IMG/VR virus record: IMGVR_UViG_3300021960_000013
Coordinates: 1-31,578 of that record
Source of the DNA: a virus
Length of the DNA stretch: 31,578 nucleotides
Reading direction: 5' to 3' (one strand)
The notes under the pieces were generated by a model that was not told the DNA's origin, searched no databases, and was given only the letters and a program-made list of their open reading frames with translations. Shown one piece after another: positions 18,869-24,237 of this stretch (positions are counted from its first letter, which is position 1; each line of letters begins with the position of its first letter). The translations under genes were made by a program, and so were the position numbers.

Positions 18869-19149
18869 AACAATTAGAGAAAATATATTGGTGGGATCCC
18901 ACAGGGATGGCCACTTGGCACGATATGGAAGCAATCAAAAGGTTGGAGCCCGCTCGCTGTGTTACAATAGCAGAAGTAATACACGAGACAGCGGATTGGA
19001 TCGTTACATCAGCATCACATTCCAACATAGAAGGTGCTGAAACAGAATACGCGGATATCACGGTATTGCCTAAGGGCTGTATCACACTGAGACAACCATA
19101 CATAGAAAAGGAGCACACCATAAATGACTTGGCCGACAAACAGCAGTAA
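18865..19149 (+). CDS. Small conserved-type phage protein
   Basis: 94 aa, 4-nt overlap with the coiled-coil gene. Pattern IYWWDPTGMATWHDMEAIKR, RCVTIAEVIHETADWIV, ITVLPKGCITLRQPY resembles a short protein found near tail fibre genes in various phages (W-x-D-x-T/S...W...PARC...PKGCI). No biochemical function known to me. Its end overlaps the next gene by 26 nt. Confidence 0.6.
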   Translation: MKQLEKIYWWDPTGMATWHDMEAIKRLEPARCVTIAEVIHETADWIVTSASHSNIEGAETEYADITVLPKGCITLRQPYIEKEHTINDLADKQQ

Positions 19150-19555
19150 CATAGTGACCACCAATTTGGATTCGGGCACAGATTCACCGGCAGCGGCACG
19201 TGCCAATTTAAAAACAGCATTGGACGAGCTGGCTAATGTGATAAACGGAAGGAACCAGGCATCAGGAGTAGCGGGATTGAACGCTTCCTCACAGATATCT
19301 GCCTCACAGATTCCCAACGAACTAAACTCAACATCAGGCAACGATATCACACTGGATCCTGCCACCAGCATAGTAACGGTTGAGAACATCATCAAGTTGA
19401 CACCACAGACCACGGCACAATTGAACGCCCAATCCGGATTGGCAGACGGGATGATTGCTTTCTGCTCGGATGCTGGAGACTCAGCAGGCGTGGGCATTCC
19501 TGTCTATTACACAGGCGGTCAGTGGAAGTCCATGATTGATGGCGCTAACATCTAA
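19124..19555 (+). CDS. Tail fibre/appendage protein
   Basis: 143 aa. Starts MTWPTNSSNIVTTNLDSGTD followed by SPAAARANLKTALDELANVI, a head segment common to phage and prophage tail fibres, then GVAGLNASSQISASQIPNEL and a compact C-terminal domain with DGMIAFCSDAGDSAGVGIPV. Likely a short trimeric fibre. Overlaps both neighbours. Confidence 0.75.
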   Translation: MTWPTNSSNIVTTNLDSGTDSPAAARANLKTALDELANVINGRNQASGVAGLNASSQISASQIPNELNSTSGNDITLDPATSIVTVENIIKLTPQTTAQLNAQSGLADGMIAFCSDAGDSAGVGIPVYYTGGQWKSMIDGANI

Positions 19556-19757
19556 GCAGTTACTGAACAAACTCAAAGAGTGGGGCATAGAGACCTATGT
19601 TCGCCCCCAGGACGATGGTCACACATTCAGGGTAAGGATACCCAAGCACACCAATCCCTGTGATCACCCCAACGGCAAGTGTAAGTCCCATAAGACAGCC
19701 AATCTACACACCAAAATCATAACCTGCCACGTGTGTAACAGGCGTTTCCAATTGTAA
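19539..19757 (+). CDS. Small zinc-ribbon-like protein
   Basis: 72 aa from ATG 19539; a TTG one codon earlier is possible. The first 30 residues (LTSKQLLNKLKEWGI, TFRVRI) precede a metal-binding-like part with C41, H43, C48, H51, C63 and C66 (CDHPNGKC then CHVCNRRF). Possibly a small zinc-binding regulator at the end of the late operon. Overlaps the fibre gene by 17 nt. Confidence 0.6.
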   Translation: MALTSKQLLNKLKEWGIETYVRPQDDGHTFRVRIPKHTNPCDHPNGKCKSHKTANLHTKIITCHVCNRRFQL

Positions 19758-19807
19758 ATATTTGAGCACACAAATTCTTAAGCCATTTTGATAGGTGTGC
19801 TAAATAT
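19758..19807 (+). terminator. Long stem-loop at the end of the late operon
   Basis: Arms ATATTT(G)AGCACAC (19758-19771) and GTGTGCTAAATAT (19795-19807) give 13 bp with one bulged G, starting right after the last late stop codon. No clean U-tract follows; it may terminate, protect the 3' end or be a processing site. Confidence 0.5.
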
Positions 19808-19905
19808 GTGTGGCCGACACTGGTGCTTATGATATCTTCCTATGCCTTGTTTAGACTAACATCGGTGTTGGCCTCACTCGCCCAAAAAAAACCCAAAAAA
19901 AACAC

Positions 19906-19934
19906 TTTAAACACATCAATTTTTGTGTTATACT
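19906..19934 (+). promoter_or_regulatory. Promoter for the 19941-20314 RNA
   Basis: TTTAAA (19906-19911), 17-nt spacer, TATACT (19929-19934). Weaker -35 than the early promoters but correct spacing; it lies at the upstream edge of the folded, terminator-bounded region. Confidence 0.55.
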
Positions 19935-19940
19935 AAATAC

Positions 19941-20314
19941 AACTACAAAGGCATAGCAAAGGCATTTCCAGGCACAAACACAAAGGGGAGTAAGCGACGC
20001 TCCGCCCGTGGCACACGCCATACTGGTCACACTCAACCCAAAGGGGTGTATACAACCCAACTTTGGTGACACCCAGTAAGACAGAGGCAGTCGAGGGCAT
20101 ATACGCTGTGATGGCGACATCACTTGGGTCAAGCAGGTTGTAGTGGCAACCCCCAACCGAGCGGTAAACCATGGTCTCACCACTTGTGAGTGGAGGCGTT
20201 GTGGTTTCTTATGGCTTCCCAACAATGAACACACGAAATTTAAATACGTGACACACAAAACGAGAGATAGCACCAGTGCTATCTAACAAGCGGCTTACGC
20301 CACTTGTTTTTTTT
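19941..20314 (+). ncRNA. Candidate ~375-nt structured RNA
   Basis: No protein is encoded. Stems on the + strand: TACTGG/CCAGTA (20021-20026/20073-20078) continued by TCAC/GTGA (20027-20030/20066-20069) across a 3-nt bulge; a 6-bp stem with a GCGA (GNRA) loop at 20108-20123; GGTTG/CAACC (20136-20151); AAACCA/TGGTTT (20166-20171/20202-20207) enclosing CTCAC/GTGAG; a 9-bp near-loopless dyad at 20265-20284; then a terminator. The conserved cores of RNase P RNA, tmRNA and group I introns are not visible. It could act as a regulator or replication primer; both are speculative. Confidence 0.6.
20286..20314 (+). terminator. Intrinsic terminator of the structured RNA
   Basis: ACAAG-c-GGC / GCC-a-CTTGT stem (20286-20307) with a TTAC loop, followed directly by eight T (20307-20314). 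A textbook rho-independent terminator on the + strand. Confidence 0.85.
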
Positions 20315-20356
20315 GGAGTTGGAGAGTTTAAGCCACAGAGCGTAGCGATGGGGCGA

Positions 20357-20385
20357 TTGACAGCAGTCAATCCAGAACTTATAAT
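20357..20385 (+). promoter_or_regulatory. Early promoter for 20392-21131, with operator-like dyad
   Basis: TTGACA (20357-20362), 17-nt spacer, TATAAT (20380-20385): full consensus. The ATG of the next gene begins 7 nt after the -10 box, so the message should be leaderless. A perfect 7-bp dyad, GATTGAC/GTCAATC (20355-20361/20366-20372), covers the -35 box and could bind a repressor. Confidence 0.85.
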
Positions 20386-20391
20386 TGACAT

Positions 20392-20688
20392 ATGAAATGG
20401 ACACAGACCACACACACACATAGACCCAACAAGGGAAGATGGGGTATCGGCATCCACAGAGATGAACTCATCCGGGATTTGCCTACTGACTATCTGGAAT
20501 GGGCAAGACAAGCCAGAATACCAAGATGGGGACAGATGGCACACATAGAACTTGCCAAGAGAGCAAGAGCACGTGAACACACACACGATGCCACTCATCG
20601 GATCGTTGAACAGACAGTCCAAAAAGGCCCACACACACGACAACTCTATTGTGAAACCTGTGGCAAGCACATCAAGTGGCTAAAGTAG
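20392..20688 (+). CDS. Small DUF3820-like/zinc-knuckle protein
   Basis: 98 aa, start at ATG 20392 at the predicted transcription start (leaderless). Residues 14-50 (GRWGIGIHRDELIRDLPTDY then LEWARQA) resemble the DUF3820 pattern (G-x-x-x-D-x-P-x-D-Y-L-x-W). The end, CETCGKHIKWL, holds a C-x-x-C pair. Possibly a nucleic acid-binding early protein. First gene of a two-gene + operon. Confidence 0.6.
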   Translation: MKWTQTTHTHRPNKGRWGIGIHRDELIRDLPTDYLEWARQARIPRWGQMAHIELAKRARAREHTHDATHRIVEQTVQKGPHTRQLYCETCGKHIKWLK

Positions 20689-22335: not shown

Positions 22336-23220
22336 TTAGAATCTTATACACTGCCTCTGCCCCTGTTGGTCAAATGCTGATGGCCATTGTGCTCTTGGTG
22401 TGGGTGTTGACCATAACTGATCCACTTCAATCACACCCTTGTGGATCAAGTCGCGTGCCTGTGCCATTTTGTGATGGAAGCCACTTGCTCTTGGGGAGGG
22501 CAACACCACACTCACTGACTGCCAAAGCCATTGCTGGAAGTCCATAAGGAGTTTGGGGTGCTTCTCCGCTGCCAACACCACACAGCCATTCTGTGCCATT
22601 TGGACTGATTGTATCCTGTCGGTGGGACTCAAGTCCACACACCAATGATACTCGCCTCGGGGTGTGTCCACCACTTCTACACCCAATTGGTTGAAATAGT
22701 CTTTGTGATAGGTGCCCCACACCGTGACTTGCCACGTGGGTTTTTGTGTGAGCATATACTGGCAGATTACCTTGCTCAAAAATCCTGTGCCTATTATCAG
22801 CATCCTTGGAGTGTGATCTATGTGGCAGTGACTGACTGCTGTTTGTGCCTTGTAGCCCACACAATTAAGGGCACAAGCCACTGGCTCTAAGATGTATCTT
22901 GGCAGTGCTTCTGGCACCACCACGTAGGTTTGGGGCTCACACACATACTCGTCAGCGAAAGCAGGCTCACCTCTGGTGGCCACATAGTCGCCCACTTGGC
23001 AGTCCTGGACATCCTTGCCCACTTCAATGACCTGTGCCAAACCTTCGTGTCCCATACAATGTAAAGGTAGAGGGCCAAACTCGCCCTTGCCCATTGCCAC
23101 ATCGCTGGAACACACGCCAGTCAGCACACTACGGACACGGATCTGTCTGTCTGTTATGTCAGGCACTTGATATGTGGTTTCATACCATCCCTTGCCTTGT
23201 GTTGCTAATATTTTTGTCAT
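22336..23220 (-). CDS. Zinc-dependent alcohol dehydrogenase-like protein (MDR superfamily)
   Basis: 294 aa, shorter than the usual ~340. Catalytic-domain features: VCSSD with C37 and D40, CMGHEG with H58 and E59, VIEVGKDVQDCQVGDYVATR, and EPVACALNCVG. The four-Cys structural zinc lobe is missing. The nucleotide-binding motif reads GTGFLS, so the third glycine of GxGxxG is replaced, and cofactor binding may be altered. An oxidoreductase acting on a sugar or alcohol is likely; substrate unknown. It has its own promoter and shared SD leader (AAGGAGCAAACAAC) and lies next to a Gfo/Idh/MocA gene. Confidence 0.8.
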   Translation of the reverse strand: MTKILATQGKGWYETTYQVPDITDRQIRVRSVLTGVCSSDVAMGKGEFGPLPLHCMGHEGLAQVIEVGKDVQDCQVGDYVATRGEPAFADEYVCEPQTYVVVPEALPRYILEPVACALNCVGYKAQTAVSHCHIDHTPRMLIIGTGFLSKVICQYMLTQKPTWQVTVWGTYHKDYFNQLGVEVVDTPRGEYHWCVDLSPTDRIQSVQMAQNGCVVLAAEKHPKLLMDFQQWLWQSVSVVLPSPRASGFHHKMAQARDLIHKGVIEVDQLWSTPTPRAQWPSAFDQQGQRQCIRF

Positions 23221-23271
23221 AGTTGTTTGCTCCTTGGTGTTATATTGTAAACTCTTTGTGTGATTTGTCTA
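23218..23271 (-). promoter_or_regulatory. Promoter and SD leader for the dehydrogenase
   Basis: Minus strand: TAGACA (23271-23266), 16-nt spacer, TACAAT (23249-23244). The -35 begins with the TAG stop codon (23271-23269) of the upstream gene. Leader contains AAGGAGCAAACAAC just before ATG 23220. Confidence 0.65.
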
Positions 23272-24237
23272 CCTTCCCATTAATTGTGTGTAGACGCTGG
23301 CTCCAAATCCACCGGTGTTGCTGATTGTTTCACCTGTGATTTGTTCATGGATCCACACATCCTCACACATCTGCTGATCCCACCACCATTGGTCATAGTA
23401 GCCATCCATTTCGATGGTTTTGGCAATCATATCCTTGTAGCACCAATCCGGACACAAGCCCAATTCAGTGTGGCAGTTGCCTATGTGTATGGCTATGTCA
23501 TCTTCTTGGTTGCTCTTCCAATCCGCTGTGAGTTTTAATTTTATGGGTGAGTCTGGCAGTTCATATGTCAGCACACACAAATCGTCCACATCATACACGC
23601 CATCCTTTTGTATAGAGCCATAGTCTGTTTGTGCCATATCTTGAAGTGTGTAACGCTGTTCGAGTGTTCTTTGTGTGAGTTTTAAACGATGGTAGTCGTC
23701 GGGCAACAGCACACACACCATACTCAATAGGTGTGGCATAAGGTCTCTGCTGACTCCACCAAACGATTTGCTTTTGTCTGTGAACCAACTGCCTGGATTA
23801 GGCACTCTGTCCTTGTTGATCCAGTTTATGCGGATCTCTTGTTCAGGGTGTTGCCTGATGTAGGCTCTCAATTGAGGCCATATCTTCCTGTATTGGTTGT
23901 TCTTGGTCATAATCAGTTTTTTTTCACCGTTCTGTTGTGCCATATTGTGCCACCACTGGGCATCCTCGAAGCCTGGTTTTTCCACGAACACAACCCTGCT
24001 GTTGAAACCGACGTGGTGTGCTATTTCGCGGTGTAGATGATTGGGCAGGCAGATGTGGGCAGTGTCGTAGTCATAGTTGAAGTCCAAAGCATCGTCCACA
24101 TTAGTAAAGTCGGCTCCCTTGCTGACATCGGCGTCCACCGTTACCACGGTGTGCCCTAATTTTTTGAGTTGGTCGACGTATAATTGTCCAAATCCCAAAC
24201 CCACCACTAAACTTCTTTTTTGGTAGTTCTTATCCAT
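23269..24237 (-). CDS. Gfo/Idh/MocA-family oxidoreductase
   Basis: 322 aa. N-terminal Rossmann motif VVGLGFGQLYVDQL (GxGxxG intact), acidic end of strand two (VVTVDAD), family motif VEKPG (Lys-Pro) near residue 90, and the catalytic-type segment SRDLMPHLLSMV. The C-terminal alpha/beta domain follows (KLKLTADWKSNQEDDIAIHI, TGETISNTGGFGASVYTQLM). These enzymes oxidise or reduce sugars or inositols with NAD(P). Start overlaps the previous stop by 8 nt (ATGGATAA). Substrate unknown. Confidence 0.85.
   Translation of the reverse strand: MDKNYQKRSLVVGLGFGQLYVDQLKKLGHTVVTVDADVSKGADFTNVDDALDFNYDYDTAHICLPNHLHREIAHHVGFNSRVVFVEKPGFEDAQWWHNMAQQNGEKKLIMTKNNQYRKIWPQLRAYIRQHPEQEIRINWINKDRVPNPGSWFTDKSKSFGGVSRDLMPHLLSMVCVLLPDDYHRLKLTQRTLEQRYTLQDMAQTDYGSIQKDGVYDVDDLCVLTYELPDSPIKLKLTADWKSNQEDDIAIHIGNCHTELGLCPDWCYKDMIAKTIEMDGYYDQWWWDQQMCEDVWIHEQITGETISNTGGFGASVYTQLMGR

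Follow-up and report, generated by a model that had tools for sequence, protein, structure and literature searches.

The locus and its phage

In the viral contig analysed here (the window; an IMG/VR virus record, 31,578 nt), the plus-strand genes stop at nt 19757 and restart at nt 20392, leaving a gap (19757–20391) and the question of what it encodes. The original prediction was that the gap holds no gene and specifies a novel structured RNA of about 375 nt, possibly a regulator or a replication primer. The only ORFs that overlap the gap are indeed antisense. The protein set of the window is that of a siphovirus-like phage with an ordinary terminase large subunit, and its tape measure gene is distant kin of those of Pelagibacter phages HTVC111P, HTVC112P and HTVC202P. 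As had been stated, a PHROGs scan of 30 window ORFs found no known replication gene, and most window proteins are without an assignment. The RNA described below adjoins late (tail) genes in the window, as it also does in the loci retrieved via the tail gene, and lies a few kb past the cumulative GC-skew maximum of the window. Two minus-strand genes at nt 22336–24237, with oxidoreductase-type domain matches (ADH_N; GFO/IDH/MocA), are possible auxiliary metabolic genes.

Homologous loci

Eighty viral loci were fetched using the conserved gene just upstream of the RNA (nt 19124–19552). A sensitive BLASTn search located the RNA in locus L018, on the minus strand, and motif searches brought in L023 and L017, the latter a contig truncated at its 5′ end. 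The window and these three relatives have AAGGRCATAWACGC, GCGRTAAACNAT and GCGTWGTG in common, while the 5′ word common to the family, GGNG-TAARCNACG-CNCC-G[CT]CCG, is missing only where the L017 contig ends before the site. A covariance model (R1) of the four sequences gave weaker matches in L050 (E 1e-5), L040, L033, L109, L112, L114 and L027, most of which also carry the 5′ hairpin; the hairpin search added L104 and L108, and L122, L123, L127, L128 and L129 came from a pattern scan (the last three scoring E about 1e-8 with R1). A first pattern for the 3′ core returned known members and chance matches only and was discarded. With two facing bases left free, the scan yielded eight contigs that have the 3′ core (two known before), and on inspection the two bases were complementary in all eight.

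About 12 distinct members make up the family. One is in the complete genome of Phage DSL-LC06 (OR003941; L158) from Dishui Lake, in which the RNA occupies a stretch without annotation near nt 749–1065, downstream of the same tail-region gene. This genome was located via the neighbouring protein only and its R1 score is weak (9.4 bits), and it was accepted as a member because P1, the strands of the pseudoknot and the conserved core words are present and synteny is kept. Its terminase has been grouped with those of Pelagibacter phages, and its predicted host is a member of the Pseudomonadota (PMC10611076). In L018 and L017, the orientation of the RNA relative to the late/structural genes is flipped.

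Searches of annotated phages (BLASTn) with the window RNA and three relatives, one of them from subfamily E (see below), returned nothing, and among 84,980 genomes of prokaryote species no relatives of the gene at nt 19124–19552 turned up. In these genomes, the 5′ hairpin pattern gave 28 matches, none with the 3′ core, which were treated as chance; the pattern scans used motifs only and could miss diverged copies.

Coding potential and known RNA families

The gap might not specify an RNA at all, but be protein-coding DNA that is antisense or has decayed. Two antisense ORFs, of 140 and 79 codons, overlap it, and one antisense frame is open in both the window and L018. However, stops interrupt each antisense frame in the eight other homologues checked, and no protein frame stays open across ten homologues, a comparison in which a conserved frame would have counted against the RNA and which it has withstood. 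The helices described below covary with frame-breaking indels, which refutes the coding explanation, and we give it virtually no chance of being correct.

The window was compared with 4227 Rfam 15 families, including GOLLD, ROOL, RNase P, tmRNA, 6S and group I/II introns, at gathering and permissive thresholds. The only match, to GA-cis (18.2 bits; gathering 34.7), lies outside the RNA body, so that the stated lack of resemblance to RNase P, tmRNA and group I introns now extends to all of these families. Rfam matches were likewise absent from within the RNAs of L050, L109, L018, L023, L104, L108, L127 and L040, and ARAGORN found no tRNA or tmRNA gene in the window. An apparent resemblance of the consensus GRTAAACNATG to a segment of 16S rRNA was dropped, as there was no rRNA covariance-model match.

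A covarying body with a pseudoknotted core

Folding of the single sequence was not informative. The plus strand of the gap gave an energy z-score of −1.13, with 16 of 100 shuffles folding equally well, so the earlier impression of a structured RNA is not acceptable from one sequence. The window RNA was aligned with L018, L023 and L017 (alignment A7, four divergent homologues), and the features of the conserved body are listed in Table 1. On a plain MAFFT alignment, RNAalifold predicted 57 pairs, of which 28 show compensatory changes. In A7, a named 46-pair structure that includes the crossing helix has 92.7% of cells paired and two-sided changes in 27 of its pairs; not one of 500 shuffles reached any of these measures, and sliding the partners gave at most about 43% pairing. 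Because so many pairs covary and no shuffle matches them, the compensatory changes are beyond chance, and the gap almost certainly holds a structured non-coding RNA.

Table 1. Predicted and conserved features in and around the gap (window coordinates).
Feature	Position (nt)	Strand	Sequence or pairing	Support
Promoter-like site	19906–19934	+	TTTAAA-17-TATACT, TG before −10	9/12 consensus matches
Leader with three AGGCA motifs	19949–19974	+	AGGCA at 19949–19953, 19960–19964, 19970–19974
Conserved body of structured RNA	19985–20216	+		Alignment A7 with L018, L023, L017
P1, 5′ hairpin	19987–20003	+	GGAG, loop TAAGCGACG, CTCC; then GCCCG	44/44 standard pairs
P2 hairpin	20009–20020	+	TGGC-ACAC-GCCA	4/4 pairs changed on both sides
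P3 helix	20021–20078	+	20021–20029 with 20070–20078	7/9 pairs changed on both sides
P3 inner extension		+	20039–20047 with 20055–20065	5/9 pairs changed on both sides
Pseudoknot helix, 5′ strand	20084–20088	+	GAGGC, pairs with 20174–20178	5/5 covary, A7 and A13
Long-range helix, 5′ side	20089–20106	+	AGTCG 20089–20093, ACGC 20103–20106, conserved AGGGCATATAC
P4, GNRA-capped hairpin	20108–20123	+	GTGATG-GCGA-CATCAC	Covaries in L018, L017
Conserved strand	20163–20173	+	GGTAAACCATG, consensus GRTAAACNATG	Alignments A12, A13
Pseudoknot helix, 3′ strand	20174–20178	+	GTCTC, pairs with 20084–20088
P6 hairpin	20180–20193	+	CCACT-TGTG-AGTGG	Equivalents in L018 (CAGG-GTGA-CCTG), L017, L023
Long-range helix, 3′ side	20196–20216	+	GCGT 20196–20199, TGGCT 20212–20216
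Tail hairpin	20266–20283	+	GATAGCACCAGTGCTATC	Sequence and predicted fold
Intrinsic terminator	20285–20314	+	AACAAGCGGCTTACGCCACTTGTT, then T run (T8)	Sequence and predicted fold
Promoter of next gene	20357–20385	+	TTGACA-17-TATAAT, palindromic −35 (TTGACAGCAGTCAA)	12/12 consensus match
Small basic C..C..HIKW protein gene (P0002)	20392–20688	+		Near RNA in most members

The standard pairs of P1 hold over 11 distinct sequences, its third and fourth pairs each occur as three types, and its loop hardly varies. P4 is the GCGA-capped stem of the original prediction; its counterparts are GTTGTG-GTGA-CACAAC in L018, GTTGCA-GTGA-TGCAAC in L017 and a shifted hairpin in L023. P6 is only weakly aligned in the plain MAFFT alignment.

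The crossing helix reads GAGGC/GTCTC in the window and GAGAT/ATCTC, GATCA/TGATC or ACTGT/ACAGT in relatives. An unguided MAFFT alignment that takes in nine sequences of subfamilies A, B, C and D has all 45 cells of this helix paired and all five pairs covarying, a count that omits L122, L123, L040 and DSL-LC06 (spacing off by one or two bases); in a hand-set register, 60/60 are paired in 12 members. With this helix, the 3′ core is a pseudoknot. The long-range helix (20089–20106 with 20196–20216) crosses it, and as its ACGC/GCGT segment is invariant in A7, pairing there is predicted from complementarity, not from covariation. Covariation among homologues had been named at the outset as one way to check the prediction, and it is found in the body at large, in the pseudoknot and in P1. 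With no Rfam family and no conserved frame, the claim of a novel structured RNA has been borne out.

Predicted transcription signals

The predicted plus-strand promoter is present as a site, but its 9/12 match is by itself at chance level (two promoter-like sites in the scan against 1.8 expected). The elements TAAATA(C) and an AGGCA leader occur at the equivalent place in several relatives. The terminator hairpin with its T8 run was confirmed, also in the predicted fold, and was missed by a consensus scan; the body in L018 is likewise followed by a T-rich run (CTTGTTTTCTTTTGG). The promoter upstream and the intrinsic terminator downstream of the body are thus predicted signals. As for the length of about 375 nt, a structured RNA does lie there, but its conserved body is shorter (232 nt), and nt 20217–20314 form a hairpin tail and terminator that are not conserved.

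The neighbouring small gene

The gene that follows the gap has a promoter whose layout is repeated in L018, L017, L023, L010 and L016. At the small HIQW gene promoter of these loci and the window, six in all, the −35 element is palindromic (TTGAC..GTCAA) and a likely operator. P0002 alone as a query gave no confirmed viral relatives. Only the C-terminal part of the small basic protein was modelled confidently by AlphaFold (pLDDT about 88–92), and Foldseek found no match to the predicted fold in the PDB. In DSL-LC06, an in-frame TGA appears to break the HIQW-type gene (about nt 608–800), whereas the RNA is retained.

Its position raises the possibility that the RNA is a cis-acting leader (riboswitch or attenuator) of this gene (nt 20392–20688). 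RNA and C..C..H[IV][QK]W gene are adjacent and co-oriented, with the gene downstream, in the window, L018, L017, L023 and L104, and in L050 and L020 the gene overlaps the 5′ end of the RNA, which could there be the 3′ part of an mRNA. Against this, a perfect sigma-70-type promoter and a terminator stand between RNA and gene in the window, where the two appear to be separate transcription units; in L050, L109 and L020 the gene precedes the RNA, and beside the RNA of L122, L123 and L127–L129 a motif search did not find it. The RNA is therefore not always followed directly by the same gene, as a riboswitch or attenuator should be, and the leader explanation is quite improbable. That the gene precedes the RNA in some phages, and in others follows it and has a promoter of its own, speaks for an RNA acting in trans and against a gene leader. 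The RNA probably acts in trans as its own transcript, and the joint claim, that the structured RNA exists and acts in this way, is likely to be correct. RNA and small gene are probably linked in function, not as leader and gene.

The AGGCA leader and sister RNAs

In the 75 nt before 13 members, AGGC[AT] occurs 34 times against 2.3 expected, an enrichment of about 15-fold, and the maximum in 2000 random draws was 9. The spacing of the AGGCA motifs is irregular.

Sister phages carry other RNAs. In L010–L012, L014–L016, L025, L030 and L053, about 0.7–1.6 kb past the tail gene and on the minus strand, the equivalent region holds a conserved RNA (subfamily E) that is unrelated in sequence, with a CACCCTCTGATTGTG hairpin and, near its 3′ end, GCTAAAAG. 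The leader of this RNA has 26 AGGC[AT] motifs in seven loci against 1.5 expected, and no Rfam match was found in L010, L011, L025 or L053; in L010 and L016, a small HIQW gene follows the RNA. A third structured RNA (F) occurs at L004:5845–6066 and L006:5675–5870, and also in L028, L056, L059, L072 and L079. It is closed by a 12-bp helix (ATATGACGGCTA with TAGCCGTCGTAT), and 13 of 39 predicted pairs show compensatory changes in L004, L006, L028, L056, L072 and L079. L054 and L070 have further unclassified gaps downstream of the tail gene, rich in hairpins and close to AGGCA motifs, which may represent additional RNA types.

The helices change fast and keep few fixed residues in their loops, and in sister phages the same leader precedes a body unrelated in sequence. 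This suggests that the leader stays constant while the body diversifies. The locus might be a dedicated "RNA slot" of this aquatic phage lineage, in which modular bodies behind a constant AGGCA leader are swapped or diverge quickly, sister phages carry unrelated folds, and the RNA serves as a counter-defence or host-takeover effector via a new leader-binding protein. The fold classes would be A–D, E (L010–L016, L025, L053) and perhaps F (L004, L006, L028, L072). We regard this idea as speculative and more apt to be wrong than right.

Possible functions

The mechanism that we propose, tentatively and with well under an even chance of being right, is that of a scaffold or decoy. The RNA would form a transcript of its own, about 375 nt long, and its single-stranded AGGCA repeats would recruit an RNA-binding protein of phage or host, for which the adjacent small basic C..C..HIQW protein is a candidate. 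The complex of leader and protein would form a ribonucleoprotein scaffold or decoy, while the knotted body would present conserved loops to a host target.

A serious rival to this ribonucleoprotein or decoy reading is base-pairing regulation, with the RNA acting as a small RNA or sponge for host or phage mRNAs and the body being only stabilising. The conserved unpaired strands TAARNNACG and GRTAAACNATG and the AGGCA repeats could serve as seeds, but seed sRNAs require nothing nearly as elaborate as a body with a conserved pseudoknot, and we consider this function rather unlikely.

A replication primer or origin RNA, which would prime or gate phage DNA replication, is improbable. The lack of a recognised replication gene among the ORFs scanned would fit such a role but is weak evidence, because most window proteins are unassigned; the upstream AGGCA repeats could be iteron-like, but are irregularly spaced; and the RNA is a few kb past the GC-skew maximum, which however tracks gene orientation. 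The suggestion of a regulator or replication primer in the original prediction is not directly supported. The terminator that ends the transcript and the orientation relative to late genes, flipped in L018 and L017, fit an obligatory primer poorly.

Comparison with known phage RNAs

The RNA matches no catalogued family, but its kind is already recognised: ornate RNAs without known function are carried by phages (PMC12286853). GOLLD is likewise a large, elaborately structured, phage-borne RNA of unknown function that is also seen in marine metagenomes, with a conserved 3′ region and a more variable 5′ part (PMC12286853). There is, however, no covariance-model match to GOLLD, the body here is about 230–320 nt whereas many GOLLD RNAs exceed 800, and the window RNA adjoins tail genes in a window without tRNA. 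ROOL is a structured RNA of phages and prophages that has pseudoknots and no known protein partner (PMC12286853). It differs from the window RNA, which has no covariance-model match to it, is less than half the length, and has an AGGCA-rich leader before its body.

The packaging RNA (pRNA) of phi29 is also a structured RNA encoded by a phage, and the position of the window RNA beside late (tail) genes, here and in the loci fetched through the tail gene, would suit a packaging or virion-associated RNA. The window RNA has no match to pRNA or any other Rfam family, though, and lies far from the terminase, which is of the ordinary type in this siphovirus-like phage, making such a role most improbable. 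In L104 and L108 of subfamily C, directly upstream of the RNA, are matches to Atu_At1 (RF02496), a Rhizobiales sRNA (L104:2286–2396, 56.1 bits; L108:1344–1454, 51.2 bits). These are just under the gathering score (60) and represent a separate element, which was not found in the window.

The family adds a pseudoknotted-core RNA, backed by covariation, to the phage-borne ornate kind represented by GOLLD and ROOL, and at least one published genome (DSL-LC06) has an unannotated gap that it explains. Its body of about 230 nt is far easier to probe, to solve by cryo-EM and to delete than RNAs of 600–900 nt. The shared leader offers a concrete handle on which protein binds AGGCA, and the "RNA slot" pattern, if true, would be as expected for an arms-race RNA effector.
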